This document shows positions 16,669 to 34,790 of a DNA stretch of 64,000 nucleotides, one piece after another; position 1 is the first letter of the stretch, and every line of letters starts with the position of its first letter. The translations under genes were made by a program, and so were the position numbers. The stretch covers positions 1,364,001 to 1,428,000 of the forward strand of contig NZ_CP116009.1 in NCBI RefSeq assembly GCF_027941915.1, given 5' to 3'. The stretch is from Ramlibacter tataouinensis (GTDB lineage: Bacteria; Pseudomonadota; Gammaproteobacteria; Burkholderiales; Burkholderiaceae_C). The notes under the pieces are model-generated. The model saw nothing but the letters and a program-made list of their open reading frames with translations. It was not told the DNA's origin and ran no database searches.

Positions 16669-17679
16669 ATGGTGCGCCCGGTGGTCCTGCAAGGCGCTTC
16701 GCTGCAGTTGCTCAACCGGCTGCAGCGCGATTTCCCGTTCGAGCCGCAGCCGTTCAAGGCGGTGGCCGCATCGCTCGGCCTGGGCGAATCGCAGGCGATC
16801 GAGCGGCTGCGCGGCCTGCGCCAGCGCGGCGTGCTCGGGCGCATCGGCGCGGTCTGGAATCCGGGTGCGGGCGGTGCCGCGGCGCTCTGCGCGCTGGCCG
16901 TGCCGCCGGCTCGCCTGGCCGAAGTCGCCCAGCTGGTGAGCGACGAGCCCACCGTCAACCACAACTACGAGCGTGAGCACGACTGGAGCCTGTGGTACGT
17001 GCTCACCGCCGGCGACGCGCGGCGGGTGCGCGAGACCGCGGCGCGGCTGGCGCAACAGGCCGGCACGCCGTCGCTGTTCCTGCCGATGGTGCGGGCCTAC
17101 CGCATCGACCTCGGCTTCGATTTGTGCGGCACGCATGCGCCGGCGCTGGCGGCGCCGTTCGTCCAGCCGCGCGGCACGCCGGTGGCCGCGGCCGAGCGGC
17201 CGCTGGCGGCGCTGGCCGAACAGGGCCTGGCGCTGGTGCCGCGCCCCTACGACCTGTGGGCGGCCGAACTGGGCTGGCCGCTCGAAGCCGTGCTGCAACT
17301 GCTGCGACGCTGGCAGGCCGGCGGCACCCTGCGCCGCTTCGGCGCCGTGGTGCGCCACCACGAGGCCGGCTTCGGCGCCAACGCCATGACCGTGGTGCAG
17401 GCGCCGGCCGCGCAAGTCGATTCGCTCGGTGCCGCGCTGGCGGCCCAGCCCGGCGTCACCCTGGCCTACCAGCGCGTGCCCGACACCGGCTGGCCCTACA
17501 ACCTGTACTTCATGGTGCATGGCCGCGAACGCGCCGTCGTGCAACACCTCATCGCGCAGGCGCTGGCGCGCAGCGGCGCCCACCGCCATCCGCACGCCAC
17601 CCTGTTCAGCGGCCGCCGCTTCAAGCAGACCGGCGGGCGCTACTTCACCGACGCGGCGCCGGTCGCCTGCCCCGCCTGA
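16669..17679 (+). CDS. nirDL: NirDL fusion, sirohaem decarboxylase subunit
   Basis: A 336-residue protein made of two AsnC/Lrp-like units: residues about 1-160 resemble NirD and about 170-330 resemble NirL. Each unit starts with a degenerate helix-turn-helix (RLRGLRQRGVLGRIGAV; LLRRWQAGGTLRRFGAV) and ends in a RAM-like fold. Together with NirG and NirH it decarboxylates 12,18-didecarboxysirohaem precursors on the way to haem d1. In P. aeruginosa nirD and nirL are separate; fusion is a known alternative. The stop overlaps the ctaA start (TGATG). Confidence 0.92.
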   Translation: MVRPVVLQGASLQLLNRLQRDFPFEPQPFKAVAASLGLGESQAIERLRGLRQRGVLGRIGAVWNPGAGGAAALCALAVPPARLAEVAQLVSDEPTVNHNYEREHDWSLWYVLTAGDARRVRETAARLAQQAGTPSLFLPMVRAYRIDLGFDLCGTHAPALAAPFVQPRGTPVAAAERPLAALAEQGLALVPRPYDLWAAELGWPLEAVLQLLRRWQAGGTLRRFGAVVRHHEAGFGANAMTVVQAPAAQVDSLGAALAAQPGVTLAYQRVPDTGWPYNLYFMVHGRERAVVQHLIAQALARSGAHRHPHATLFSGRRFKQTGGRYFTDAAPVACPA

Positions 17680-18869
17680 TGGACGCGACGCCGCTCTACG
17701 ACCTGTCGCCGGGCCTGCGGCTGGCGTCGATGGGGTTGGCGCTGGCGGCCGGCCCGCTGGCCTGGGTCTGGCTGCGCCACGCCGGCGCCGGGCCGGCGCG
17801 GCGGCTGCGCGCGCTGACGCTGCTCACGCTGTTCCTCACCTTCGACCTGGTGGTGTTCGGCGCCTTCACCCGCCTGACCGACTCCGGCCTGGGCTGCCCC
17901 GACTGGCCCGGCTGCTACGCCAGCGCCAGCCCGCTGGGCGCCCACGCCGAGATCAGCGCGGCGCAGGCGCAGCTGCCGACCGGGCCGGTGACGCACGGCA
18001 AGGCCTGGATCGAGATGATCCACCGCTACCTGGCCACCACCGTGGGCGTGCTGATCACGGCGCTGGCCATCGGCACCTGGTCGCAGCGGCGCCGCGGGGT
18101 GCCGGTGCACCCGGCCTGGGCGATCGCCACCTTCGCCTGGGTCTGCGTGCAGGGCGCGTTCGGCGCGCTCACCGTGACCATGAAGCTGTTCCCGGCCATC
18201 GTCTCGCTGCACCTGCTGGGCGGCGTGCTGCTGCTGGTGCTGCTGCGCCGGCAGGCGGCGGACTACGCGTTCGCGCTGGACGGGCACCCAGCCGTCGGCA
18301 TCGGCGCCGGGCTGCGCCGGCTGCTGTGGGCCGGCTTCGGCCTGTTGTGGCTGCAGGTGGCGCTCGGCGGCTGGGTCAGCACCAACTACGCGGTGCTGGC
18401 CTGCAGCGACTTCCCGCAGTGCCAGGGCTCGTGGTGGCCGGCGATGGACGCACGGCAAGGCTTCGAGCTGTGGCGCGAGCTCGGGCTGACCTCGGCGGGT
18501 CAACCGATCGAGTTCGCCGCCCTCACCGCCATCCACTACGTGCACCGGCTGGCCGCCTATGTCGTGCTCGCGGTGCTGGGCGTGCTGGCCTGGCGGCTGC
18601 ACCGCGCCAACCTGCGCCGCCCGGCGCGCTGGCTGGGCGCGCTGCTGCTGGCGCAGTTGCTCACCGGCCTGTCCAACATCGTGCTCGGCTGGCCCTTGCT
18701 GGCGGCGGTGGCGCACACCGCTGGCGCGGCGGCGCTGCTGGTGGTGATGACGGGGGCACTGTGCGAAACGCGAGTCGGCGTCCGCCTGCACGATCGCTCC
18801 GCCCTGCGCTTGGTCAATCGGGACTCGCCGGTTTCCGCGCAGGATGACGGCAACCTGGAGGCCGCATGA
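17679..18869 (+). CDS. ctaA: Haem A synthase (CtaA/COX15 family) inside the nir operon
   Basis: A 396-residue membrane protein with about eight TM segments in two four-helix halves. The family motif GAFTRLTDSGLGCPDWPGCY lies at 61-80. Haem-ligand histidines are visible in all four positions: EMIHRYL, SLHLLGG, IHYVHRL and VAHTAGA. It converts haem O to haem A. It overlaps nirDL upstream (TGATG) and nirG downstream (ATGA), so it is co-translated with haem d1 genes, an unexpected partner. Haem A would be needed by the haem-copper enzymes encoded at 31293 and possibly 25998. A different role in haem d1 maturation cannot be excluded. Confidence 0.93.
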   Translation: MDATPLYDLSPGLRLASMGLALAAGPLAWVWLRHAGAGPARRLRALTLLTLFLTFDLVVFGAFTRLTDSGLGCPDWPGCYASASPLGAHAEISAAQAQLPTGPVTHGKAWIEMIHRYLATTVGVLITALAIGTWSQRRRGVPVHPAWAIATFAWVCVQGAFGALTVTMKLFPAIVSLHLLGGVLLLVLLRRQAADYAFALDGHPAVGIGAGLRRLLWAGFGLLWLQVALGGWVSTNYAVLACSDFPQCQGSWWPAMDARQGFELWRELGLTSAGQPIEFAALTAIHYVHRLAAYVVLAVLGVLAWRLHRANLRRPARWLGALLLAQLLTGLSNIVLGWPLLAAVAHTAGAAALLVVMTGALCETRVGVRLHDRSALRLVNRDSPVSAQDDGNLEAA

Positions 18870-22783: not shown

Positions 22784-23179
22784 TCAGGCGCCCGCCTGCA
22801 GTGCCGCGCGCACCCGCTGCAGGCGTTGCCCGGCTTCATCGGCCACGCCGGTCACGCCCGGGTTGCCGGTGAGCTGGACCATCGTCTGCGGATCCAGGAA
22901 GCCCACCGAGACCCGGCCGCCATCCAGCTGCCGCAGCGTCACGTTGCAGGGCAGCAGCAAGCCGATGTCCGGTTCGGCCTGCAGTGCCTGGTGGGCCAGC
23001 GGCGGGTTGCAGGCGCCCAGGATGCGGTAGGCGGGCATGTCCTGGCCCAGCTTGTCCTTCATCGCCTTCTGGATGTCGATGTCGCTGAGTACCCCGAAGC
23101 CCTCGGCCTTCAGGGCGGCAAGCACCTTCTCGATCGCCTGTTCGAAGGGTCCGGGAATGTCGACGTGGAATCCATACAT
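22784..23179 (-). CDS. DUF302-family protein
   Basis: A 131-residue protein with the DUF302 core (GFGVLSDIDIQKAMKDKLGQ, then YRILGACNPPLAHQALQ and GLLLPCNVTLRQL). It has two conserved Cys, in GACNPP and LPCNV. It has no signal peptide. DUF302 proteins are small alpha/beta proteins often next to redox or metal-stress genes; their function is not established. It is the last gene of the minus-strand run, 134 bases after the dnr gene, and converges with nirN. Confidence 0.85.
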   Translation of the reverse strand: MYGFHVDIPGPFEQAIEKVLAALKAEGFGVLSDIDIQKAMKDKLGQDMPAYRILGACNPPLAHQALQAEPDIGLLLPCNVTLRQLDGGRVSVGFLDPQTMVQLTGNPGVTGVADEAGQRLQRVRAALQAGA

Positions 23180-23313
23180 GGTCAGTGGTCCTCGCTCGGT
23201 GCGACGCCGGAGTCACCCGGCGCCGGTGATGCCCGTTTCCGGGCGGAACGCCCGCGGCGCCGATCCTGCCGCCAGGCTCGCACCAGTGGACGGTCTGCTG
23301 GACCGCAGGCCCG

Positions 23314-24018
23314 CTACTGCAACTGGTACTGCGCCAGCTTCTTCGGATCGCTGATCCGGATCTCCCTGCGGTCGATCTCGATCAGGCCCTCCTCCTCCAG
23401 CTCGTGCAGCACGCGCGAGAAGTATTCGGGCGTGAGCGACAGCCTTGACGCGATGGTCGCCTTGCTCACCGGCAGCGACACGGTCACGCCGCCGTGCTTC
23501 TCGGCCGCCTCGCCGACGTCCCGCAGCAGGTAGCCGATGATGCGCTGGGCGCCGCTGCACAGCGTGTAGTCCTCGACGTCGCGCACCAGCCCGTGCAGGC
23601 GGCGCGAGATGCCGGCCAGCATGCGCAGGCAAAAGCGCGGGTCGTTCTCGATCTCGGACATCACCGCCGCCTTGGCCACGCTCAGCACCAGCGCATCGGT
23701 CAGCGCCTGCGCGGTGACGATGTAGGGCCGGCCGGTGAACATCAGCGCCTCGGCGAAGGTGCCGCCCGGGCCGATGATCTCGATCACCTTCTCCTGGCCG
23801 TTGGACGACAGGGCGAACAGCTTGACCTGCCCCATGACGGTGACGTGGAACTCCTCGCAGGGGTCGCCGACGCGGAAGACGGTCTGGCCTCGGCTGAAGC
23901 GGCGCAGCGTGCAGCCGCCCGCCAGCCGGGACAGCTCGGGCGGGGCCACGTCGTGGAACAGCGGCAGGGCCGACAGGTAGCGCGGCAGGTCGAAAGCGGG
24001 TCGGCTCGGGGTGTCCAT
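23314..24018 (-). CDS. dnr: Crp/Fnr-family regulator, Dnr/NnrR type
   Basis: A 234-residue activator with a cyclic-nucleotide-type effector domain (about 20-140), dimerisation helix and C-terminal helix-turn-helix (VSKATIASRLSLTPEYFSRV). The N-terminal Cys cluster of oxygen-sensing FNR is missing, as in NO-sensing Dnr/NnrR proteins. The ATG at 24018 (MDTPSRPAF) is chosen because the similarity begins there. TTGA-N6-TCAA boxes lie before nirS, the NOR-like operon and the aromatic genes, and a TTGC-variant box lies upstream of this gene, suggesting autoregulation. It is most likely the NO-dependent activator of the denitrification genes. Confidence 0.9.
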   Translation of the reverse strand: MDTPSRPAFDLPRYLSALPLFHDVAPPELSRLAGGCTLRRFSRGQTVFRVGDPCEEFHVTVMGQVKLFALSSNGQEKVIEIIGPGGTFAEALMFTGRPYIVTAQALTDALVLSVAKAAVMSEIENDPRFCLRMLAGISRRLHGLVRDVEDYTLCSGAQRIIGYLLRDVGEAAEKHGGVTVSLPVSKATIASRLSLTPEYFSRVLHELEEEGLIEIDRREIRISDPKKLAQYQLQ

Positions 24019-24089
24019 CGCGGCAGCCTTCCACGGTCCGGCCAAGCGCGGCCCGTGGCGCAAGTGTGGGTGCCTGGCCGGCCGGCGGT

Positions 24090-24103
24090 TTGCGCTCGGT
24101 CAA
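24090..24103. promoter_or_regulatory. FNR/Dnr-like box upstream of dnr
   Basis: TTGCGCTCGGTCAA, one base off TTGA-N6-TCAA. The centre is 78 bases before the dnr start, and the site overlaps the end of the upstream fusion gene. It could support autoregulation of dnr. Confidence 0.5.
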
Positions 24104-25998
24104 GCCGGCTGCACGGCCGGGGCGAAGGCGTCGGAAAAGCAGGCCTGCTCGTCCAGGCCGCGCGACAGGAAGGCCTGCACGGCGGTGTCGACCATCCGCA
24201 CCGAGCCGCAGACGTACACCTCGTGCGCGCCCAGGTCCGGGAAATCGGCCAGCAGCGCCTCGTGCACCAGGCCCGTGCGGCCGCTCCAGTGGTCGCCGGG
24301 CTGCGGCTCGGACACCACCGGGATCACCTGGAAGCCGGGGTGCCCGGCCTGCCACTGCAGCGCCTGCTCGAGCAGGTACAGGTCCTGCGGCCGGCGCACG
24401 CCCCAGTACAGGTGCATCGGCCGCTTCAGCCCCTGGTGGAACGCCTCCTCGACGATGCTCTTGACCGGCGCGAACCCGGTGGCGCCGGCCACGAACAGGA
24501 GCGGGCGCTCACCATCCTTGAGCTGGAACTGCCCCAGCGGGCCCTCGAAATCCACCAGGTCGCCGGGGCGCATCTGCTCGAACACATGGGTGGTGAAGCG
24601 CCCGCCCGGCACCAGCCGCACGTGCAGCTCGAGCCGGTCGTTGCGGTGCGGCGGGTTGGCGAACGAAAACGCGCGCCGGCCGCCGTCGGGCAGCACGATG
24701 TTGATGTACTGGCCGGCGGCGAACGGCACCGGGCCGCCCTCCACGTCCAGCCACAGCCGCATCACGTCGGGCGCCAGCCGCTCCATCTGCAGCACGCGGC
24801 CGCGATGGCTGCCCAGCGGTTGGGCGCCCTCGACCGCCCGCTCGACCTGGATGCACAGGTCCTCGCGCGCGGTGGCGCAGCACATCAGCGCCTGGCCCTG
24901 CGCCTTCATGGCGTCCGACAGCGCCGCCTGCTGCGCCGGCCGGTGGTCGACCGCGCCCTGCTCCACCGTGCACAGGCACAGCCCGCAGGCGCCGTTGCGG
25001 CATTCGTAGGGCAGCGCCAGGCCCTCGCGCAGGCCGGCATCGAGCAGCGTCTCGCCGGCGCGCACCGTCACCTGGGCCGACGCGCCGCCGGCGTCCAGCA
25101 CCACCATGCGGTGCTCGGCCTGCTTGCCGCCGGCCGGCCGCAGCAGCCAGGGCAGCGCCACCATCAGCCCGGTCGCGAGCACGGTGAGCGCCCACACCTG
25201 GGCATGGGCCCCCTGCGCCATCCAGGGCAGCAGCGCCAGGTAGAACCAGTCGAGCCGGACCTGCGCCACCGCGGTCGACAGGTCGGCCGCCCCGCCCTGG
25301 CTGAGCACCGGCAGCGCCAGCGACAGCAGCAGCAGCGCGGCCACCACGCCGATGGCGATCGGCTTCGGCGGCGTGGTGCGCGCGCGCGGCACCCGCTGCA
25401 CATGCACCCACATCAGCAGCAGCACCACCAGCGGCAGCCCGATGTGCAGGAACGACAGCAGCGAGAAGAAGCGGTCGCCCACGCTGGTGCTGTAGATGAA
25501 GTTGCGCATCAGCGTGCCCTGCAGGGTGGGCAGCCACTCCAGCCACTCGAAGCTGGTGACGATGGTGAACTGGGCCAGCCGGTCCCAGGGCAGCATGTAG
25601 CCGTTGATGCCGGAGGCGTACACGCCCCAGACCAGCACCACGCCGGTGACCCAGGAGAACCAGCGGTAGCCGTTGAAGCGCTCGAAGGCGAAGTGCCGCA
25701 GCAGGTGCAGCAGCATGGTCACCACCAGCGCGTCGGAGGCATAGCGGTGCAGGCTGCGCAGGATGCCGCCGGCGAACCACTGGCCATGGGTGATCGCCTC
25801 GACCGAGTCGTGCGCCGCATCGACCCCGGTCTCGAAGAAGGCGTACAGGTACAGGCCGCTGGCCGCCACCACCCAGAACAGGTAGAAGGTCAGCGAGCCC
25901 AGGTGGTACAGCGGGTTGACGCGGTCGCCGAAGGCGGCATCGAACAGCCCCTCCAAGCGCAGGAACAGCCAGCGCAGCCCGGCCTGGATCTTTCGCAT
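24100..25998 (-). CDS. Cytochrome b-[2Fe-2S] ferredoxin-FAD/NAD(P)H reductase fusion
   Basis: A 632-residue three-module protein. Residues 1 to about 320 are a membrane cytochrome b like the N-terminal half of bc1/b6 cytochrome b. It has two bis-His haem pairs (LHRY...LLHLL in one helix, FLHIG...WVHV in another) and a subunit-IV-like RLDWFYLALLP. About 335-425 is a plant-type [2Fe-2S] ferredoxin (CRNGACGLC plus a distal Cys). About 430-632 is a flavoreductase with RAFSFANPP for FAD, VAGATGFAP and EVYVCGSVRM for NAD(P). It should pass electrons between cytoplasmic NAD(P)H and membrane haems or quinone. The start overlaps the haem-copper gene stop (TGATG). Confidence 0.88.
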   Translation of the reverse strand: MRKIQAGLRWLFLRLEGLFDAAFGDRVNPLYHLGSLTFYLFWVVAASGLYLYAFFETGVDAAHDSVEAITHGQWFAGGILRSLHRYASDALVVTMLLHLLRHFAFERFNGYRWFSWVTGVVLVWGVYASGINGYMLPWDRLAQFTIVTSFEWLEWLPTLQGTLMRNFIYSTSVGDRFFSLLSFLHIGLPLVVLLLMWVHVQRVPRARTTPPKPIAIGVVAALLLLSLALPVLSQGGAADLSTAVAQVRLDWFYLALLPWMAQGAHAQVWALTVLATGLMVALPWLLRPAGGKQAEHRMVVLDAGGASAQVTVRAGETLLDAGLREGLALPYECRNGACGLCLCTVEQGAVDHRPAQQAALSDAMKAQGQALMCCATAREDLCIQVERAVEGAQPLGSHRGRVLQMERLAPDVMRLWLDVEGGPVPFAAGQYINIVLPDGGRRAFSFANPPHRNDRLELHVRLVPGGRFTTHVFEQMRPGDLVDFEGPLGQFQLKDGERPLLFVAGATGFAPVKSIVEEAFHQGLKRPMHLYWGVRRPQDLYLLEQALQWQAGHPGFQVIPVVSEPQPGDHWSGRTGLVHEALLADFPDLGAHEVYVCGSVRMVDTAVQAFLSRGLDEQACFSDAFAPAVQPA

Positions 25999-27431
25999 CA
26001 GTGCACCGCCCCCAGCGCCGCCGAGGGCGCACCGGCGCCGCGCATCGCGCGCAGCACCACCACCACGAACAGCAGGCCGCCGACGATGGCGATCGCCCCG
26101 CCCAGCCCCATCAGGCCCATGCCGGCGATCTCGCCGCCCGAGCGCAGCACCTGCCCGGCGCCCGCCACCTTGCGCTGCACGCCATAGCCGCCCGACCAGA
26201 CCAGGCCGACGATGTGCATCAGCTGGCCGATGCCGTAGATCCAGGGCTGCGCCGTGGCCAGCCGGCCTTGCGGCGCGGCATGGCCCAGCGCCGGCAGCAC
26301 CCGGTACACCACGCCCATCAGCGCCAGCGTCACGCCGACGATGCAGCCGTGGTAGTGCGCCGGGATGCGCACGTTGCTGCCGGTGATGAACACGCCGATC
26401 AGCCCGCCGGCGCCGAACAGCAGCACCGAGGACAGCAGCGCGGCGCGCCAGGGCCGGGCCGGCGCCGGCAGCGGCCCGGTCGCCAGCAGGCCGACCACCG
26501 CCGCCAGCGCCACCGGCAGGATCGCCGGGCCGCCGCCCAGGCGCATCGCCCAGGTCAGGATGGCGCGGTGCTCGACCGAGGCCACGTCGTAGGCCAGGTA
26601 GGCCACCGGGGTGGCGAACACCGCCGCCAGCGCCAGCCAGAACATCAGCACCGCCACCCGTGGGCTCAGCGGCAGCTTGGCGCCGCACGCCCCGGACAGC
26701 CACAGCCAGGCCACCAGCATCAGCAGCGTCCAGGTGAACTGCAGCGCATGGCCGCCGCCCCAGAACAGGATCTCGTAGTAGGCCTTGCCTTCCAGCGAGG
26801 TCGGCACGACAACCCACGACCAGGCGAACGCCAGCAGCGCGACGGCGGTGGCCACCGCGGCGGCATTGAGACCGAAACCCAGCGCGCCGGCGGCATCCAG
26901 CCTGGCGCCGGTGCCGCGCGCCTGCAGCAGGGTGCGGCCCACCAGCAGCGCACTGCCGGCGCCGAACAGCAGCAGCCCGATCACGAACAGCGGCGCCGTC
27001 AGCATCGGGATGTAGTTGGCCATGATGGCCTGGCCGGCGCCGGTAAAGGGCGCCAACGCCATCGCCACGGTACCGGCGCCGGCCAGCGCCAGCGCCGCCC
27101 AGGCCCAGCCCAGCGCGCGCGGCGCGGCATTCAGGCTCCACAGCATGCCAGCCAGGGCGACGAACCACACCAGCACCGACAGGTCGACGTGCGCCACCAG
27201 CGCCACGTGGAAGAAGTCGGCGGCCGGCAGCAGCCGGTTGACGCCGGGCGTGCGCGAGACCACCAGCAGGATGGAGAACAGGCCGGAGCCGACCAGCGCC
27301 GCCATGCCCAGCCAGAGCCAGCCGCGCGCCAGCGCGAGGCGGGCGTCGGTGGGGACCGAAAGGCCATAGATCGTGCCACCGCCGGTGGCGCGGTCCGAAC
27401 GGACGGACACAGGAAGATGCAGGGTACTCAC
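25998..27431 (-). CDS. Divergent haem-copper oxidase/NO reductase-superfamily subunit I
   Basis: A 477-residue protein with about 12 TM segments. Candidate ligands: His81 (helix II, VAHVDLSVLVW), His228 (helix VI, WGGGHALQF), His288 (helix VII) and His359/His361 (helix X, IPAHYHG). GGYGVQRK near 415 follows. The Tyr four residues after the helix VI His is Phe232, so the His-Tyr cofactor of O2 reductases is absent. The helix VII HH pair reads Glu287-His288, so one CuB ligand position is Glu. These features point to NO reduction or another reaction rather than O2 reduction. The GTG start overlaps the stop of the repeat-derived mini-ORF. No CuA or cytochrome c subunit adjoins directly. Confidence 0.82.
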   Translation of the reverse strand: MSTLHLPVSVRSDRATGGGTIYGLSVPTDARLALARGWLWLGMAALVGSGLFSILLVVSRTPGVNRLLPAADFFHVALVAHVDLSVLVWFVALAGMLWSLNAAPRALGWAWAALALAGAGTVAMALAPFTGAGQAIMANYIPMLTAPLFVIGLLLFGAGSALLVGRTLLQARGTGARLDAAGALGFGLNAAAVATAVALLAFAWSWVVVPTSLEGKAYYEILFWGGGHALQFTWTLLMLVAWLWLSGACGAKLPLSPRVAVLMFWLALAAVFATPVAYLAYDVASVEHRAILTWAMRLGGGPAILPVALAAVVGLLATGPLPAPARPWRAALLSSVLLFGAGGLIGVFITGSNVRIPAHYHGCIVGVTLALMGVVYRVLPALGHAAPQGRLATAQPWIYGIGQLMHIVGLVWSGGYGVQRKVAGAGQVLRSGGEIAGMGLMGLGGAIAIVGGLLFVVVVLRAMRGAGAPSAALGAVH

Positions 27432-27556
27432 GTCGCCGGTCGATCAAAAGCGCAATGCCTGTTCCAGCGCCACCGCGGAACCGGCTTTGCCGGGCCGCTG
27501 GTGGCGCCCCTTGAGGGGGAGCGCCGAAGGCGCTTCGGGGTGGTCCTGTTCTTCAT
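27428..27556 (-). CDS. Repeat-derived coupling mini-ORF (42 codons)
   Basis: A 42-codon frame made almost wholly of dispersed repeat family 2, copy B. Its ATG overlaps the stop of the upstream membrane-protein gene (ATGA), and its TGA overlaps the GTG start of the downstream haem-copper gene (GTGA). The predicted peptide is basic and Pro-rich (SRGATSGPAKPVPRW), in the same frame as copy A. A stable protein is doubtful; its likelier effect is to carry ribosomes across the repeat so the next cistron is translated. Confidence 0.5.
   Translation of the reverse strand: MKNRTTPKRLRRSPSRGATSGPAKPVPRWRWNRHCAFDRPAT
27469..27542. repeat. Dispersed repeat family 2, copy B
   Basis: The reverse complement of the element at 21101-21180, about 74 bases. 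It keeps the inverted-repeat core GGCCCGGCAAAGCCGG and the GAAGCGCCTTCGGCGCT stem. It lies between two cistrons of the NOR-like operon, with the same orientation relative to transcription as copies A and C. Confidence 0.9.
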
Positions 27557-28062
27557 GTGAACGTGATGCCGCCCTTCTCGGCGTCGAAATCGATCACCAG
27601 CACCTGCGCCGGCTTGAGCCTGAGCGTGGCTTCGCGGGTGTGGTTGAAGGCGTCGCCTGGCTTGTCGCGCAGGCGCACCACGATGCGGTGCTCGCCGGCC
27701 GGCAGGTCCAGGCGGTGGTAGACCGCGGAGGCGCCGTCGCGGCTCAGGCCGGACGGCGGCGCGACCTGGCTGAGGATGGTGCGCCCGTCCAGCTCCACCT
27801 CGATGGCCACCGGCACCCGCTCGCGCTCGCACTTCAGCGGCGTGCGCATGTTGGGCGGCAGCCGGGCCAGCTCCTCGGGCGTGTAGGGCCGGCAGGGCGC
27901 GACCCGCTCGCCATGGTGGATGAAGCTGACCTTCAGCACCGCCTCCTCCGGCCCCAGCGGGTGGTAGGTCGGCCCATGCGAGAACAGCGCCACGAAGGCG
28001 GCGAACAGGCCGTACAGCAAGCCCTGCCCGAGCCAGGTCTTCCAGGTGTTCCGGTGGTTCAT
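27553..28062 (-). CDS. Membrane-anchored periplasmic protein of unknown function
   Basis: A 169-residue protein with one TM segment (about 12-30, GLLYGLFAAFVALFSHG) and a soluble domain outside the membrane, rich in beta strands. Cys residues at CRPY and LKCER and a His in FNHTRE are present, but the CuA pattern CxxxCxxxHxxM is not. It overlaps both neighbours by ATGA junctions and lies between the cytochrome b-ferredoxin fusion and the divergent haem-copper subunit. It may be an accessory subunit of that complex. The family is not recognised. Confidence 0.75.
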   Translation of the reverse strand: MNHRNTWKTWLGQGLLYGLFAAFVALFSHGPTYHPLGPEEAVLKVSFIHHGERVAPCRPYTPEELARLPPNMRTPLKCERERVPVAIEVELDGRTILSQVAPPSGLSRDGASAVYHRLDLPAGEHRIVVRLRDKPGDAFNHTREATLRLKPAQVLVIDFDAEKGGITFT

Positions 28063-29540
28063 GCGATCGATCCCTCCGCTGGCCGCGGGCTGCGCAGCGC
28101 CTGCGCCAGTCGATGTTCTTCGCCGGCATCGGCCCAGACGCTGCGCCAGCGCCCGGACGGCCCGTCGCCGCGCAGGTACGGCTCGCGCGTGCCGGCCAAC
28201 CGCGCCTGCATCCACTCCGGGCCCAGCCGGTACTCGCAGCCGCCCTCGCGGCAACCGGCCACCAGCACGCCGGCCGCGCCTGCGCGCAGCGCGTACTCGA
28301 CGAAGGCGGGCGGCAGTTGCGCCGTGCAGCCCAGCTCCAGCACCAGCACGCCGGGCCCGGCCACCGCCTGCGCATCGGCGCCGCAGGCGCAGCTGAACAC
28401 CACCTGCGCCGCGCCTTGCTCCAGCCCGGCCCGCAGCCGCTCGCGCAACTGCGCCACGGTGGAGGCCGGCAGGTCGATGCCCGTGCGCAGCGGCTGCGCC
28501 TGGCGGAACGGGGTGGACGAGGGACAGGCGCCGGCGCAGATGCCGCAGCCGGCGCAGGCCGCCGCCCGCACCACCGCCACCTGCTTGCCGGCCCGGCCGT
28601 CCGGATGCGGCGCCAGCGCGATGGCGCCGAATGGACAGTCGTCGACGCAGCGGCCGCAACCGCTGCAGTGGTCCGGATCGACCACCGCCACCGGCGGCCG
28701 CGGCTTGCGCGACAGGAACGGCAGCGCGGACAGGGCGGCCAGCACGCCCGCGAGCAGCACCCAGCCGGCCTGCGCCGAGGTGGCATCCACCAGCGGATGC
28801 AGGAACAGCAGCAGCCCGTCGAGCGCGAGCCGCTGCGGCACCGTTCCGAGTTCGGCCGGACCCTGGCTTTGCACCGGCAATACCAGCGACAGGCCGGCCA
28901 GCAGCAGCACGGTGCCGGCGGCCAGCCCCCGGCGCGGGAACACCGCGGCATGGCCGGTGCGCTGGATGTGGGCCCAGCTGCCGAACACCAGCAGCAGCGG
29001 CAACCCGATGTGCACGAACACGAACAGCGAGAACAGCCGGTCGCCCACCGCGCCGCCGAGGAAATTGCGCGCCAGCGGCGAGGCGAGGAACGGCAGCGCG
29101 TCCAGCCATTCGGCGGTGGCGATGGCCGAGTACTGCCCGAGGCGGTCCCAGTTGAGCCAGAAGCCGCCGATGGCGCAGGCATAGGCCAGCGGCAGCAGCG
29201 GCACGCCGGTCAGCCAGGCGTAGCGGCGGTAGTGCCGGAAGCGGCCCAGCGCCGCTTCGCGCAGCAGGTGCAGCAGCAGCACGATGGCGAAGGCATCGGC
29301 GCCGTAGCGGTGCAGCCCGCGCAGCAGCGTGCCGGACGCGAGCGGCAGCTGCGCCAGCGCCTCGATCGAGCGGTACGCCCCCTGGGCCGAGGTGTCCAGC
29401 ACGATGTAGAGGACCACCCCGCTGGCCGCCAGCAGCCACAGCAGCAGGAAGGCCAGCGCGCCGAGCTGCTTGAGCGGGTTGCCGGCGGCGCCGAATGCGG
29501 CGTCGAAGCCGTGCTCAAGCCTGGTGACCCAGCGGCGCAT
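28059..29540 (-). CDS. Cytochrome b-2[4Fe-4S] ferredoxin-MvhD domain fusion
   Basis: A 493-residue protein. Residues 1 to about 275 are a bc1/b6-like cytochrome b with two bis-His pairs (LHRYGADAF...LLHLL; FVHIGLPLLLVFGSWAHIQ). About 288-350 holds two [4Fe-4S] ferredoxin motifs (CSGCGRCVDDCP and CAGCGICAGACP). About 365-470 resembles the MvhD/FlxD iron-sulfur subunit that links hydrogenase or flavoprotein to HdrA (LELGC and GCREGGCEYRLG). Such a chain could move electrons between ferredoxin-level carriers and membrane haems. It overlaps the SCO gene start region by 26 bases and the next gene by ATGA. Module identity is clear; the physiological partners are unknown. Confidence 0.86.
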   Translation of the reverse strand: MRRWVTRLEHGFDAAFGAAGNPLKQLGALAFLLLWLLAASGVVLYIVLDTSAQGAYRSIEALAQLPLASGTLLRGLHRYGADAFAIVLLLHLLREAALGRFRHYRRYAWLTGVPLLPLAYACAIGGFWLNWDRLGQYSAIATAEWLDALPFLASPLARNFLGGAVGDRLFSLFVFVHIGLPLLLVFGSWAHIQRTGHAAVFPRRGLAAGTVLLLAGLSLVLPVQSQGPAELGTVPQRLALDGLLLFLHPLVDATSAQAGWVLLAGVLAALSALPFLSRKPRPPVAVVDPDHCSGCGRCVDDCPFGAIALAPHPDGRAGKQVAVVRAAACAGCGICAGACPSSTPFRQAQPLRTGIDLPASTVAQLRERLRAGLEQGAAQVVFSCACGADAQAVAGPGVLVLELGCTAQLPPAFVEYALRAGAAGVLVAGCREGGCEYRLGPEWMQARLAGTREPYLRGDGPSGRWRSVWADAGEEHRLAQALRSPRPAEGSIA

Positions 29541-30381
29541 GCGGGCGCTCCTTCCGCCGTTGCCGGCGCCGCTGCCGCCATTCGTTGAGCATGTACAGCA
29601 GCATGGCCAGGATGAACGTCAGCCCGCCCGCGATCTCCCAGAGCAGGCTGTAGTCCACCCGGTAGGTGCCGGTGTCCGGGTCGTACACCGTGCAGACGAT
29701 GCGGATCTGGTCCCACAGCTCCTCCAGCAGGCCCTGCTGCGGCACCGGCTGCCCCGCCACCAGCGCCGTCAGCGCCGCGCCCAGCGTGTCCACCGCCGGG
29801 CGGTCGCCATAGACCTGGCGCACGATGCGGCCTTCGGCATCCAGCAGGGTGACCTGCAGCACGTGGTCGAAGCCCGCCGGTGTCATCGCGTAGCGGAAGC
29901 CGAAGCCGCTGGTCAGCGCCGGCAGCGCGGCGGCCGGGGCGCTGAGGAACTCCCAGTTGTCGCGGCTGATGCGGTGCTGGGCGGCGAAGGCGCGCATCGC
30001 CTCGGGCGAATCGGCCGGCTGGTTGAAGCCGATGCTGACCACGTTGAAGCGGTGGTCGCCGAAACGGGTGCCCAGCGCATCGACCGCCTCCAGCAGCGAG
30101 CGCGTGGTGGCCGGGCAGACCTCGAAGCAGCCGGTGTAGATGAAGCTGACCATCAGCGGCTTGCCGCGGTAGGACGACAGGCGCACCGGCCGGCGCTTGC
30201 GATCGAGCAGCACGGCGTCCGGGGCCAGCTGCCCGACCACGGCCTGGCTGGCCAGCTGCGCCTCGCGCGGATCCAGCTTGGGCACTTCCTGCGCCGCGGC
30301 GAGCGCGGCGCACGCGGCCAGCACGGTGGCGAACAACCGGCGGGCCAGGACCGGGATCAGGCGAAGGGCAACATCGGACAT
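29515..30381 (-). CDS. SCO1/SenC-type copper chaperone with C-terminal membrane anchor
   Basis: A 288-residue thioredoxin-fold protein. It has an N-terminal signal or anchor ending near AAAQ at 31, the copper-binding CxxxC in TGCFEVCP and the third ligand His in FDHVLQV. Unusually, it also has a C-terminal TM segment (about 248-268) followed by a basic tail (RRRQRRKERP). SCO proteins insert copper into the CuA site of subunit II. The CuA subunit encoded at 33031 in the same operon is the likely client. It lies four bases after ctaB. Confidence 0.92.
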   Translation of the reverse strand: MSDVALRLIPVLARRLFATVLAACAALAAAQEVPKLDPREAQLASQAVVGQLAPDAVLLDRKRRPVRLSSYRGKPLMVSFIYTGCFEVCPATTRSLLEAVDALGTRFGDHRFNVVSIGFNQPADSPEAMRAFAAQHRISRDNWEFLSAPAAALPALTSGFGFRYAMTPAGFDHVLQVTLLDAEGRIVRQVYGDRPAVDTLGAALTALVAGQPVPQQGLLEELWDQIRIVCTVYDPDTGTYRVDYSLLWEIAGGLTFILAMLLYMLNEWRQRRRQRRKERPHAPLGHQA

Positions 30382-30385
30382 CGGA

Positions 30386-31282
30386 CTACAGCAAAGCGTC
30401 CAGCGTGGCCGCCACCAGCAGCGCGCTCAGCTGGATCAGCGAGGCGAAGAACGCCGGCATGGCGGTGGCGCGCGAAGGCCGGCGCGCCAACTGCCAGGTC
30501 TTGAGCAGGAACCAGCCGCCGCCGCCGATGGCGCCCGCGGCATAGACGCCGCCGGCGCCGCAGGCGAACAGCGGCAGCAGCGAAGCGGCCACCAGCAGCA
30601 CCGTGCTGGCGAACACGATCCGGGCGGCGCGGGCGTCGCCCACCACCACCGGCAGCATCGGCACGCCGGCGCGCTCGTACTCGGGCCGGTTGGCGATCGC
30701 CAGCGCCCAGAAGTGCGGTGGCGTCCACAGGAACAGCACCAGCGCCAGCAGCCAGGCCTGCGCGCCGGGCACCGGGTTGGCGGCGGCGGCGCCGGCCAGC
30801 ACCGCGAAACTGCCGGCCAGGCCGCCGACGACGATGTTCCAGGGCGTGCGGCGCTTGAGCCACAGCGTGTAGACCACGCCGTAGAAGAACGCGCCCAGGA
30901 ACACGTAGGCGGCGGCCGCGGCATTGAGCGCCGCTGCCGCCGCGGCCACGGCGCCGACCAGCAGCAGCGCCATCACCCACAGCCAGCGCGGGTGCCGCTC
31001 GATCGCGCCGGTGGCGAAGGCACGGCCGCGGGTGCGGCCCATCAGGCGGTCGGCCTCGTGCTCGGCGTACTGGTTGAAGGCGCCGGCGCTGGCCGAGGCC
31101 AGCAGCACCGACAGCGCCAGCACCGCCACCTGCCAGGCCGCCAGCGACGCGCCCGGCGTCACGGCCAGCCCGACCAGCGCGGTGACCATGATCAGCGTGC
31201 CGATGCGCAGCTTGAACAGCGAGATCACCAGCCGGGCCCGGGCCAGGAGGCCCGGGCCGGCGGCGAGCGGGGGGGTGCCCAT
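30386..31282 (-). CDS. ctaB: Protohaem IX farnesyltransferase (haem O synthase)
   Basis: A 298-residue polytopic UbiA-family prenyltransferase. The Mg/prenyl-diphosphate motif NQYAEHEADRLMGRTRGR lies near residues 70-87, and LFLWTPPHFWALAIANRPEY near 183 is diagnostic for haem O synthase. It makes haem O, the substrate of haem A synthase. Its place directly after the haem-copper subunit I gene, with ctaA genes at 17679 and 33873, indicates that the terminal reductase here carries haem A or a related haem. Confidence 0.95.
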   Translation of the reverse strand: MGTPPLAAGPGLLARARLVISLFKLRIGTLIMVTALVGLAVTPGASLAAWQVAVLALSVLLASASAGAFNQYAEHEADRLMGRTRGRAFATGAIERHPRWLWVMALLLVGAVAAAAAALNAAAAAYVFLGAFFYGVVYTLWLKRRTPWNIVVGGLAGSFAVLAGAAAANPVPGAQAWLLALVLFLWTPPHFWALAIANRPEYERAGVPMLPVVVGDARAARIVFASTVLLVAASLLPLFACGAGGVYAAGAIGGGGWFLLKTWQLARRPSRATAMPAFFASLIQLSALLVAATLDALL

Positions 31283-31292
31283 CGCCGGCCTC

Positions 31293-33020
31293 CTAGCTCA
31301 GGCCCCAGAGCTGGCCCAGGTACTTCCAGTTGATGAAGTAGTACAGGACGAAGGCCACCAGGAACAGCATGGCGAGCATGAAGGTGCCCGGCGCCGCGAA
31401 GCCGGCCGACCCGTAGGTCTGCACCGCCACGCTGGGCGCCGCCCGCGGCACCGGCGTGCCGACCGCGCTCGGCTTGCCGGCATCGAGCTTCCTGCCCCAC
31501 AGCAGCGAGCCGACCGTGATCGCGATGTACAGCCCGCCGCCGGCGATGGCGGCCACGCCGGAGATGCCGACCAGGCCCATCATCAGGTAGGCGGCGCCCG
31601 GCCACTCGTAGGCCTGGGCGGCGCCCTGGAAGGCCATGTCCCAGTGCCGGCGCGACACCCCCAGCGTGCCCGCGCCCATCATCACCAGGGTGAAGAAGTA
31701 CATCGACAGGCCGAACAGGTAGGGCTGCAGCCTGGCCAGCTGGGGCCAGATCATTTCGCGCTTGAACAGCGCGGGGATCAGGAAGTAGGTCATCCCCATG
31801 AAGGTCAGCGTGGTGCCGATCACCACCGTGGCGTGGAAGTGCCCCGGCACGTAGATGGTGTTGTGGATCAGCATGTTCAGCTGCTCCGTGCCCATCATCA
31901 CGCCCGAGATGCCGCCCAGGAAGCCGAAGCCCACCAGCGACAGCGCCACGCTGGAGAACACCGGGTTGCCCCAGGGCGCCTTGCGCAGCCACTCGAACAG
32001 GCCGCGGGTGTAGCCCTTCTGGCGCTGCGCGACTTCCATCGCGCCGGGAATCGTCAGGCCGTGGATCATCGAGGCCAGCACCGCGAAGTACATGAAGTAG
32101 CTGGTGTTGACCACCTTCCAGCCGGTGGACATGCCGGGGTCGGCCAGCAGGTGGTGCGCGCTCGCCAGCTGCAGGAACAGGATGTACAGCAGGAAGGCGC
32201 CGCGGCTGACCCGCTCGCTCATCGGCTTGGCGCCGAAGGCGATGGCGGCGACCGCATACCAGATCGAGATGTGGGCGGCCACGTTGATCTGCTGCGAGGA
32301 GTGGCCGAAGGCCCACCAGATGGTGCGGTAGATCAGCGGATCGACCTCCTTGACCAGCCCGATCGACATCAGGAAGGTCGGGATCAGGATGATCGCGCCG
32401 GAGGTGATGGTGAACACCGCGATGATGGCCGCCGTGATGGCGCCGAAGGTCACCAGCGGCACCGAGCCCTCGTAGGTCTTCTCGCGCTTGGCCACCACCA
32501 GGGTGCCGAAGAACACGAAGCAGGCGATCAGCGCGCCGACGGCGAACAGGATCAGGCCGACGTAGAACGACGGCGCCGCCATCATCGGCACGTACGACGT
32601 CATCATCACGCTGGAGCCGCCCTGGAAGACGGCCACGTTGTTGACGACGGCGCCGATCAGCATCAGCGCGAAGGCCAGCCAGGCGATCTTCGGCGTCGCG
32701 ATCCGGCAGCGCAGCAGGGTCGAGGAGCAGAAGTACAGCACCGCGACCTCGAAGAAGATGATCCAGAAGATCAGCATGTCGATGCCGTGCGCGGTGAGCA
32801 CCATGTAGAAGGTGTCGGGCGCCAGCCAGTGCACCGCGGGCCAGCGGGTGAGCACCACGCCGATGGCGAGCAGGCCGCCCACCAGCAGGGCCACCACCGC
32901 GACCACGGCGTTGACGATCATCAGGCGCTCGGCCTGGGCCTCGAACTGCAGGCCGGTGCGCGGGCAGGTGCGGTAGGTGGTGCCGCCGAAGCTGCCGGAC
33001 AGGGGAAGGGTTGCGGACAT
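31293..33020 (-). CDS. Haem-copper subunit I, eNOR-like (probable NO reductase)
   Basis: A 575-residue protein with at least 12 TM segments. Conserved ligands: His78 (helix II), His240 (helix VI), His289/His290 (helix VII, SAHHLL) and His394/His396 (helix X, VPGHFH). The catalytic Tyr of O2 reductases, four residues after the helix VI His, is Gln244 (GHSSQQINV), as reported for alternative quinol/CuA NO reductases such as eNOR. With a CuA subunit II, a small TM subunit, SCO and ctaB in one operon, and nirS and dnr nearby, NO reduction is the best guess. Exact NOR subfamily is inference; a standard cytochrome oxidase is less likely. Confidence 0.87.
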   Translation of the reverse strand: MSATLPLSGSFGGTTYRTCPRTGLQFEAQAERLMIVNAVVAVVALLVGGLLAIGVVLTRWPAVHWLAPDTFYMVLTAHGIDMLIFWIIFFEVAVLYFCSSTLLRCRIATPKIAWLAFALMLIGAVVNNVAVFQGGSSVMMTSYVPMMAAPSFYVGLILFAVGALIACFVFFGTLVVAKREKTYEGSVPLVTFGAITAAIIAVFTITSGAIILIPTFLMSIGLVKEVDPLIYRTIWWAFGHSSQQINVAAHISIWYAVAAIAFGAKPMSERVSRGAFLLYILFLQLASAHHLLADPGMSTGWKVVNTSYFMYFAVLASMIHGLTIPGAMEVAQRQKGYTRGLFEWLRKAPWGNPVFSSVALSLVGFGFLGGISGVMMGTEQLNMLIHNTIYVPGHFHATVVIGTTLTFMGMTYFLIPALFKREMIWPQLARLQPYLFGLSMYFFTLVMMGAGTLGVSRRHWDMAFQGAAQAYEWPGAAYLMMGLVGISGVAAIAGGGLYIAITVGSLLWGRKLDAGKPSAVGTPVPRAAPSVAVQTYGSAGFAAPGTFMLAMLFLVAFVLYYFINWKYLGQLWGLS

Positions 33021-33030
33021 GGGCGCCTCC

Positions 33031-33570
33031 TTACTTGACGTAGAGGCGACCCACCATCTGGTGGTGGTTGATGCCGCAGTATTCGTTGCAGACGATCGAG
33101 TACGTGCCCGACTGGTTGGGCGTGACCTTGATCACGTGCTCGTAGCCGGGGACGACCTGGATGTTGATGTTGCTCGGCTGCAGCGAGAAGCCGTGGTTGT
33201 AGTCCATGGCGGTCAGGTGCAGCTTGTAGGTCTTGCCCTTCTCCAGCTCCAGGATCGGCCACCAGGACCACAGGCGGGCGATCAGGTAGACGTCGCTGTC
33301 GGGCGGCGGCGCCACCACCGGGATTTTCTGCTCGGTCTCGGTGCGGACGGTGTACTTGGCGGCGAAGGCCTCGGCCTTGGCGGCGAACTTGTCGGGGCTG
33401 GTCTTGTACGTCTCGGTGGAAAGGTTCTGCTTTCCGTAGGCGTGCCAGTAGACCATCATGAAGAACATCACCATGCACCACACGAAGGCAATGGCGATCC
33501 AGGTGCCTTCGACGCGGTCCAGCGGATGCTTCCACCAGAGGCGCTCGGCCGGCGGGAGGATGGCGGTCAT
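33031..33570 (-). CDS. CuA-containing subunit II of the haem-copper enzyme
   Basis: A 179-residue protein with one TM helix (about 23-43) and a periplasmic cupredoxin domain. The complete CuA site is visible: His126 (YNHGF), then Cys161, Glu163, Cys165, His169 and Met172 in CNEYCGINHHQM. It is shorter than aa3 subunit II, having one TM helix rather than two, as in B-type and eNOR-like enzymes. It should accept electrons from a periplasmic cytochrome c. It lies ten bases before the subunit I gene. Confidence 0.93.
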   Translation of the reverse strand: MTAILPPAERLWWKHPLDRVEGTWIAIAFVWCMVMFFMMVYWHAYGKQNLSTETYKTSPDKFAAKAEAFAAKYTVRTETEQKIPVVAPPPDSDVYLIARLWSWWPILELEKGKTYKLHLTAMDYNHGFSLQPSNINIQVVPGYEHVIKVTPNQSGTYSIVCNEYCGINHHQMVGRLYVK

Positions 33571-33580
33571 CGGCGTGCTC

Positions 33581-33736
33581 CTACTTGGCGACCGGGATGG
33601 TCAGGATGTCGATCACGCCCCACAGCGTGTAGACGACCATGGGGATCAGCACCCCCAGGAACAGCAGCAGGAAGGGGTTGTCCAGCAGCTGCTGCATCAG
33701 CGGGACCTTGCCGTCGTCGGTTTCCTCGTGGCTCAT
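33581..33736 (-). CDS. Small single-TM subunit of the haem-copper enzyme
   Basis: A 51-residue protein: a short acidic N-terminus (MSHEETDDGK) followed by one TM helix (about 23-44, NPFLLLFLGVLIPMVVYTLW). The ATG at 33736 is preferred over upstream starts because the hydrophilic head and operon spacing fit. It is the first gene of the NOR-like operon, about 60 bases downstream of an FNR/Dnr-like box. Similar tiny subunits accompany other haem-copper complexes and stabilise subunit I. Confidence 0.8.
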   Translation of the reverse strand: MSHEETDDGKVPLMQQLLDNPFLLLFLGVLIPMVVYTLWGVIDILTIPVAK

Positions 33737-33794
33737 GGCGCTCCTCACGTGTTGTTCGCGGACGCCATGGTTCTCCGAGTGCCGCAGTCGGACA

Positions 33795-33808
33795 TTGATC
33801 TGGAACAA
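33795..33808. promoter_or_regulatory. FNR/Dnr-like box between the NOR-like operon and ctaA2
   Basis: TTGATCTGGAACAA, one base off TTGA-N6-TCAA. With the centre at 33801.5, a transcript start 41.5 bases away falls about 25 bases before the small-subunit gene on one side and about 30 bases before the ctaA-like gene on the other, so it could serve both directions. Confidence 0.65.
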
Positions 33809-33872: not shown

Positions 33873-34790
33873 ATGACCGCCCTCCATCGCCGCCTGCAGA
33901 CGTTGCGCGCCCTCGCGTGGAGCTGCGCGGCGCTGGTCATCGCCATCACCACGCTCAGTGCCTACATCCGCCTGTCGCGCACCGGACTGGGCTGCCAGCC
34001 CTGGCCGGCCTGCTACGTGTCGGAGGCGCTGCGCACGGCCTCCCTGGACAGCGTCGCCATCGGCTTCGCGCGCATCGCGCACCGCATCAGCGCCAGTGCG
34101 GTGCTGGTGGCGATCATCGCGGCGCTGATGATCTCGCTGGCGCGCAACCCGGCGCTGTGGCGGCCGGGGCGGCTGGTGCTGGGGCTGCTGGGGCTGGCCG
34201 CCTTCCTGGCGGCGTTCGGCCGCGCCACGGCCGATTCGCTGCTGCCCGCGGTGACGCTGGGCAACCTGCTGGCGGGCATGGCCCTGTTCGCGGTCGCCTG
34301 CGCCTTCGTGCGGGCGACCCGCGACGACGGACCACCGGCCGCTTCCCGGCGCCTGCGCCTGTGGGCCTGGGCGGCCGCCGTCCTGCTGCTGGTGCAGATG
34401 GCGCTGGGCGGGCTGGTCAGCTCGGCCCATGCGGGGCTGAGCTGTCCGGCGCTGGCCGCCTGTTCGCTCGACGCGGGTTCGTGGGCCTTGTTCAACCCCT
34501 TCCACGCCGCCGGCGATCCGGCCCAGCCGCTGAACCCGGCCGGCGCGCTGGTGCACATGGCGCACCGGCTCGGCGGGCTGGTGGTGTCGCTGGTGCTGGT
34601 GGCGCTCGGGCTGGCGGCCTGGCGCGGCCGGCGCCGCTGGGCCGGGGCGCTGCTGGTGGTGCTGCCGCCGGCCCAGATCGCCGCCGGCGTGCTGCTGGTC
34701 TCCGCCGGGCTGCCGCTGGCCGTGGCGCTGGTCCACAACGTCATCGCGGCCGTGCTGCTGACCACCACCGCGGCGCTGCTGGACGGCTGA
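33873..34790 (+). CDS. Second CtaA/COX15-like protein, divergent
   Basis: A 305-residue membrane protein of the haem A synthase family with about eight TM helices. It has the signature YIRLSRTGLGCQPWPACY and a second Cys pair (LSCPALAACS). Three haem-ligand His positions are present (RIAHRIS, VHMAHRLGG, LVHNVIA). The position corresponding to SLHLLGG in the first paralogue reads TLGNLLAG, so that His is Asn. It is transcribed away from the NOR-like operon from a shared region with an FNR-like box. It is probably a haem-modifying enzyme for that complex, but activity as a normal haem A synthase is uncertain. Confidence 0.88.
   Translation: MTALHRRLQTLRALAWSCAALVIAITTLSAYIRLSRTGLGCQPWPACYVSEALRTASLDSVAIGFARIAHRISASAVLVAIIAALMISLARNPALWRPGRLVLGLLGLAAFLAAFGRATADSLLPAVTLGNLLAGMALFAVACAFVRATRDDGPPAASRRLRLWAWAAAVLLLVQMALGGLVSSAHAGLSCPALAACSLDAGSWALFNPFHAAGDPAQPLNPAGALVHMAHRLGGLVVSLVLVALGLAAWRGRRRWAGALLVVLPPAQIAAGVLLVSAGLPLAVALVHNVIAAVLLTTTAALLDG

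Follow-up and report, generated by a model that had tools for sequence, protein, structure and literature searches.

What purpose could two cytochrome b fusion proteins and a second protein of the haem-copper family serve in a gene cluster for nitric oxide (NO) reduction? The question arises from a 64,000-nucleotide (nt) stretch of Ramlibacter tataouinensis, hereafter the window (contig NZ_CP116009.1, positions 1,364,001 to 1,428,000; 4.47-Mb genome in a single contig), where eleven genes follow one another on the minus strand from 33736 to 22784. We number them in that order and give minus-strand features without further mark. A preliminary description of this run had listed a haem O synthase, an SCO protein, two cytochrome b-reductase fusions and two haem-copper subunits, and the coordinates and profile matches bear out both the run and these members. 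It had also held that the run is not a standard denitrification operon, a view supported here. The eNOR signature, the domain make-up of the proteins, the loss of a metal-binding His pair in one of them, the conservation and co-occurrence of the genes and an enrichment of upstream regulatory boxes can all be read from sequence. On these grounds we propose, with a probability of roughly 0.4, that genes 6–8 would form a dedicated trans-membrane redox module of CcoG-like architecture that builds or activates the eNOR.

Genes 1–3 are, by sequence, the core of an eNOR, an already known if little-studied kind of enzyme, and NO reductase activity is predicted for them. eNOR, characterised as an NO reductase only recently, is relevant to the release of N2O and is said to be a B-family haem-copper enzyme (reportedly Hemp and Gennis 2008, Murali et al. 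2024). The predicted catalytic subunit I is gene 3 (31293..33020; PF00115, 216 bits), which reads H240-S-S-Q-Q244 and has Q244 where oxidases carry their Tyr, as do 79/79 rows, window included, of an alignment filtered for at least 55% identity to the window protein and 400 columns (25 of 104 rows dropped). H240, H289, H290, H394 and H396 are invariant in the same rows, and the relatives from Thermus and Thermomicrobium read H-G-A-Q-Q. Among solved structures, B-type oxidases come closest: of 22 PDB sequences matched at an E-value of 0.001, 19 are ba3-type entries or 7deg at about 1e-42 or better (7deg and the Thermus entries titled just "subunit 1" are presumably B-type), and the remaining three match at 6e-5 or weaker. 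Ten nt separate gene 3 from the end of gene 2 (33031..33570; PF00116), a cupredoxin subunit II with a complete CuA site, whose residues H126, C161, E163, C165, H169 and M172 are kept in 78/78 rows. One eNOR study likewise recognises subunit I by a Gln replacing the oxidase Tyr, and in its example a cupredoxin subunit II is encoded directly upstream (PMC8756737). Gene 1 (33581..33736) encodes a 51-amino-acid protein, hydrophobic over residues 13–49 and with no match in Pfam or NCBIfam, which is a candidate for a small eNOR subunit. Among plasmid genes, 12/12 full-length eNOR-like records with 97% coverage are annotated as "cbb3-type" or "b(o/a)3-type" oxidases.

The second haem-copper protein, gene 8 (25998..27431; COX1-family match, 52 bits), referred to below as HCO2, has the full 12-helix fold of a haem-copper oxidase (HCO) subunit I. 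It keeps the predicted His ligands of the low- and high-spin haems (H81, H359 and H361, with H228), these four residues being present in all but 4 of 113 rows. What it lacks is the helix VII His pair: H289 and H290 of the eNOR align with A277 and Y278, and a His stands at each of these positions in 1/113 rows, so that of the three CuB/FeB histidines only one has an aligned counterpart in HCO2. Tyr278 occurs in 103/113 rows, the position of eNOR Gln244 is a Phe in 110/113, and a pair of His elsewhere within residues 255–300 is found in 11 rows, about 10 residues later than that of the eNOR. In profile comparisons HCO2 comes nearest to eNOR (E 8e-18 to 4e-24 against four single eNORs), followed by a B-type oxidase (1e-5) and by A, C, C-like and qNOR proteins (0.0076 to 0.49). 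Judged by these alignments, HCO2 is most likely an eNOR relative that lost its metal site, and not a second NO reductase. Hence, the earlier reading of two NOR-like catalytic subunits, acting as one or as two NO reductases, stands for gene 3 as an eNOR and finds no support for gene 8. Several genomes (G353, G381, G350, G363, G430 and others) encode a second, more divergent relative of HCO2, often in a longer open frame, the length of which should not be taken as that of the gene.

Genes 6, 7 and 9 supply the redox and extracytoplasmic parts of the cluster. Gene 6 (28059..29540) combines a cytochrome b6-like domain, two [4Fe-4S] ferredoxin motifs and an FlpD/MvhD domain, as identified by Pfam and by PDB profiles of cytochrome b6, HdrA and MvhD. 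Its four haem His and 12 Cys are each present in 87 or 88 of 88 rows, and the same holds for the eight ferredoxin Cys, which suggests two [4Fe-4S] clusters; the ferredoxin and MvhD part also matches positions 569–762 of NF040770 (81 bits, covering part of that model and falling far short of its cut-off). Gene 9 (24100..25998) joins a cytochrome b6-like domain, in which a GYMLPWD loop can be read, to a [2Fe-2S] domain and an FAD/NAD(P) reductase (Pfam; PDB matches to BenC-type reductases and cytochrome b6), with redox ligands in at least 71/73 rows. Gene 7 (27553..28062) is modelled as an N-terminal helix (residues 6–28, missed by a simple hydropathy scan) followed by a beta-sandwich, with a mean predicted local distance difference test (pLDDT) score of 93.8 in the AF2 model, and is probably periplasmic. 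It has no Pfam match and no family was matched by more than one of 20 members, and C57, C78, N71, M72 and R73 are present in at least 95% of 94 rows. Neither gene 6 nor gene 7 matched FixG_C in Pfam at an E-value of 0.1.

The genes are closely packed at most junctions, with gaps of 10, 10, 10 and 4 nt across genes 1–5 and an overlap of 26 nt between the SCO gene (gene 5) and gene 6. The "many ATGA overlaps" first described were an overstatement, as there is a single one (4 nt), between genes 6 and 7. Genes 7 and 8 are spaced by 121 nt that include part of a short palindromic genomic repeat (27507..27534; one copy in the window and four places in the genome, the other three with 2 mismatches each), genes 8 and 9 overlap by 1 nt, and gaps of 81 nt and then 134 nt follow gene 9.

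This arrangement is beyond chance, as it recurs in dozens of genomes. Conservation in relatives, which the preliminary description had named as a check, was confirmed in a set of 80 named loci, 40 of which hold genes 1–9 complete and in the order of the window; a further 12/80 show the alternative order SCO, gene 9-type fusion (b-FNR), gene 7, gene 6-type fusion (b-Fd), HCO2. Gene by gene, homologues were present for gene 1 in 66/80 loci (also in the eNOR stretches of Thermus and Thermomicrobium), for the eNOR in 71/80, for the ferredoxin part of gene 6 in 73/80, for gene 7 in 79/80 and for the reductase part of gene 9 in 72/80. Nine loci had no eNOR in view, and eight of these genomes carry one at another place. 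These loci are the top 80 among at least 569 relatives of HCO2, and the set is therefore skewed to near kin and to HCO2 carriers.

We also considered 321 evenly drawn genomes of the class, where eNOR was detected in 26, gene 6 in 27 and HCO2 in 35. The pairing of eNOR with gene 6 is close: gene 6 occurs in 25 of the 26 eNOR genomes, these 26 spanning 21 family codes (Fisher p 8e-34, a value that ignores relatedness). The sole eNOR without gene 6 (in G264) lies at a contig end, and of the two gene 6 genomes outside the eNOR list, one has a cut eNOR beside gene 6 and the contig of the other stops short of that place. HCO2 is found with eNOR in 21 genomes. Among 34 HCO2 loci examined in this sample, 10 hold the cluster from gene 1 to HCO2 (with the thresholds used, two with a gap above 700 nt, one without SCO and some without ctaB), 7 hold parts of it, and 17 have no recognised partner in the stretch, some stretches being short contigs; gene 9 stands directly behind HCO2 in none of the 10 clusters. 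Within at most 7 kb of the 21 HCO2 loci that lack a full eNOR cluster in the stretch, reading of the neighbours identified COX1 (7), CtaA-like (6), ctaB-like (5) and SCO-like (4) genes. HCO2 was further detected in 58/398 genomes of a phylum-level sample.

Clusters without HCO2 and eNOR stretches from other phyla help to delimit the unit. By reading, four HCO2-less eNOR loci (L199–L202) retain genes 1–3, SCO, gene 6 and gene 7; behind gene 7 follows a hemerythrin-like gene in two of them and a CtaA-like gene in three (L199, L201, L202). A hemerythrin-like protein after gene 7 was noted in the HCO2-less clusters L199, L201 and L178, where it possibly replaces HCO2. An alphaproteobacterial plasmid similarly carries genes 1–7 and then a hemerythrin gene, with neither HCO2 nor gene 9 within the stretch, and gene 6 matched one plasmid record only, from Defluviimonas. 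Plasmid stretches from one Thermus thermophilus (homologues of genes 1–3 only) and one Thermomicrobium roseum (genes 1–3 plus a haem O synthase only) held no genes 6–9 within 8 kb each side of the eNOR, a comparison that leaves the chromosomes aside. Because these stretches lack them, genes 6–9 look like add-ons and seem unneeded for catalysis as such.

A box of FNR/DNR type, TTGTT-N4-ATCAA (33795..33808), lies 58 nt upstream of gene 1 and agrees with 9/10 bases of what we take to be the consensus. When at least 9/10 consensus bases were demanded at most 160 nt upstream, such boxes preceded gene 1 in 26/77 relatives vs 0.39% of 770 single-base shuffles used as controls. No such box preceded gene 7 in 78 relatives (0/78), or gene 8 either in the window or in 39 relatives, and boxes preceded a cytochrome b gene in 16/90 cases with gene 6 as query and 17/86 with gene 9, queries that can share genes. 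The upstream sequences thus indicate that the cluster is most likely under FNR/DNR-type control and, given where boxes occur, make one transcript plausible here and two in some relatives.

How might these parts work together? In the scheme that we favor, the eNOR would remove NO produced by the neighboring nirS system. Gene 4 (30386..31282), a haem O synthase (ctaB/cyoE; TIGR01473, 252 bits, above cut-off), and gene 5 (29515..30381), an SCO-family copper protein (PF02630), would provide haem O/A and copper together with a nearby CtaA/COX15-family protein, a haem A synthase candidate encoded divergently from gene 1 (33873..34790, plus strand; PF02628, 108 bits). Genes 6, 7 and 8, joined by gene 9 in the window and its nearer kin, would make up the accessory redox module: an NAD(P)H- or ferredoxin-level donor would reduce its cytoplasmic Fe-S and flavin domains, electrons would then pass the membrane via two b haems, and on the periplasmic face they may serve to build or activate the metal centers of the eNOR (through reduction of copper, iron or the haem-metal site), as CcoG does for cbb3 oxidase, with HCO2 joining as a haem-carrying scaffold or relay. 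We infer the topology of this module, the direction of electron flow and the role in maturation. A dedicated role is suggested by how closely gene 6 accompanies eNOR, by the absence of the module from the stretches of two other phyla and by the company of SCO, ctaB and CtaA genes. Precedents come from two reports, one describing CcoG, which has two Fe-S clusters along with an Ig-like domain in the periplasm, as a cupric reductase for cbb3 oxidase (PMC7558416), the other a haem-dependent membrane protein that supports haem-copper oxidases and is a proposed copper reductase (PMC13038864).

Several observations weigh against this proposal. A profile comparison found no significant relation between gene 7 and the Ig-like domain of CcoG from the same genome (E 0.013 to 0.06, probability below 4%), and the genome already has that CcoG. 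The b6-like domains, including the GYMLPWD loop of gene 9, fit quinone chemistry equally well, and taken with the NAD(P)H and MvhD modules they suit electron supply equally well. Of the 26 eNOR genomes, 5 lack HCO2, and 14 of 35 HCO2 genomes have no eNOR match by threshold (13 after reading G259, where a cut eNOR lies beside gene 6 and HCO2 at a contig end), so that the role of HCO2 cannot be specific to eNOR. Eight of these 14 genomes encode a cytochrome d1 protein and six have no d1 match, and HCO2 is therefore not tied to NirS denitrification either. Finally, H288 of HCO2, about 10 residues past the aligned pair and present in 94/112 rows that have a residue there, might act as a metal ligand.

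The main alternative, close to the reading of the preliminary description and in our view possible if somewhat doubtful, is that the two cytochrome b proteins are an electron input, passing NAD(P)H and ferredoxin electrons to the quinone pool or to the CuA site of the eNOR, with HCO2 as a two-haem relay; this would amount to an NAD(P)H/ferredoxin:NO oxidoreductase assembly. The complete and conserved redox chains of genes 6 and 9, their b6-like domains and their place in the same cluster are all consistent with such a route, and a ferredoxin metabolism is suggested by BcrA/BadF-like and ferredoxin-oxidoreductase genes elsewhere in the window. However, the Thermus and Thermomicrobium eNOR stretches have no such genes, gene 9 never directly follows HCO2 in the 10 class-sample clusters, and a general quinone reductase need not pair so strictly with one enzyme. 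It is unlikely that HCO2 is itself catalytic, as a membrane-bound mono-haem enzyme that uses a distal His/Tyr pocket to reduce NO or O2 or to detoxify NO and, supplied with electrons by the two cytochrome b fusions, acts as a membrane counterpart of flavohaemoglobin. Its retained haem His and Tyr278 would suit such a pocket, the reductase part of gene 9 resembles that of flavohaemoprotein among many others (62 bits, far below cut-off), and hemerythrin follows gene 7 in some HCO2-less clusters. On the other side, HCO2 has no binuclear site, 17 of its 34 class-sample loci are the partnerless ones, and every NO reductase or oxidase of the haem-copper superfamily characterised to our knowledge has three metal-ligating His. 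A more elaborate version, in which the CuB-less HCO2 and the two fusions (b6-FNR and b6-ferredoxin-MvhD) would form an NAD(P)H/ferredoxin-driven mononuclear-haem NO/O2 enzyme within an eNOR supercomplex, appears more unlikely still. A reading of HCO2 as a true second NO reductase whose metal site has been rearranged (H228, H288 and other ligands) is very improbable, since the full HCO fold and the frequent H288 are offset by the distance of that residue from the eNOR pair, its lack of invariance and the Phe at the Gln244 position.

The surroundings are those of a denitrifier. The adjoining nirS cluster (plus strand, 13.0–22.7 kb) encodes two proteins with cytochrome c and cytochrome d1 domains (13052 and 21175), a NirF-like d1 protein (15124), NirD/L-like siroheme decarboxylases (16669 and 18844) and a radical SAM protein (19897), the names nirS, nirF and nirJ being our presumed assignments from domains; a tetrapyrrole methylase lies on the opposite strand (12103–12945). 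A second CtaA/COX15-family protein (17679–18869, plus strand) sits inside this haem d1 cluster, between siroheme decarboxylase genes; its match covers 17814–18749 and the first ATG of the frame is at 17679. At the other end of the run, gene 10 (23314..24018; PF00027 and PF13545) is a Crp/Fnr-family regulator, first described as Dnr, with FtrB as best NCBIfam match, below cut-off, and has a homologue somewhere in the locus in 21/80 named loci. Gene 11 (22784..23179; PF03625), a DUF302 protein, lies outside the conserved unit, and just one locus has a homologue that covers 60% of it (2 alignment rows, the window being one). Elsewhere, the genome encodes a TAT-type nosZ (989 bits, above cut-off) and nine COX1-family matches. 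One of these, the 758-amino-acid L008, reads like a qNOR and has no NCBIfam match at 1e-30. The genome also encodes two CcoN-like proteins (L005 and L006) with an extra N-terminal stretch (261 and 251 bits vs a ccoN cut-off of 583). A Pfam scan of 30 window proteins revealed no NorC, NorQ or NorD. The genes between 35740 and 45424 (BcrA/BadF-like, HgdD-like, enoyl-CoA hydratase, zinc alcohol dehydrogenase, ferredoxin oxidoreductase) suggest that aromatic compounds are broken down anaerobically, by the benzoyl-CoA type of degradation, with the genes for it beside those for denitrification.

If genes 6–8 are indeed helpers of eNOR, they would explain how this enzyme is matured or powered and provide a genomic marker for it, and because gene 6 tracks eNOR so closely, knock-out tests should be straightforward. 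HCO2 would moreover bring in a haem-copper family that is widespread and has no binuclear center, raising the question of what this fold can do without CuB/FeB. A literature search, the main eNOR paper aside, found no description of an accessory module with a CuB-less haem-copper relative. Compared with known systems, the cluster shares with qNOR and cNOR the reduction of NO in denitrification, and a probable qNOR (L008) is present in this same genome, although those enzymes have another catalytic subunit and active-site residue than gene 3. The ferredoxin and MvhD part of gene 6 resembles HdrA2/MvhD of heterodisulfide reductase (NF040770, MvhD chains), whereas the HdrA flavin part is unmatched and the fusion is to a cytochrome b6. 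Like CcoG/FixG, gene 6 encodes a membrane protein that has two predicted Fe-S clusters and goes with a single haem-copper enzyme. It differs in its two-haem cytochrome b6 and MvhD domains in place of any FixG_C match, and the periplasmic Ig-like domain of CcoG may here correspond to the separate gene 7, which has no detectable homology to CcoG. Finally, genes 2 and 3 agree with eNOR in the Gln at the Tyr position, the CuA subunit II immediately upstream and the relatedness to B-type enzymes, while this locus and most eNOR genomes of the class sample add to that core an SCO protein, the b6-Fd-MvhD fusion and gene 7, often also ctaB and the CuB-less HCO and, among near kin, the b6-FNR fusion.

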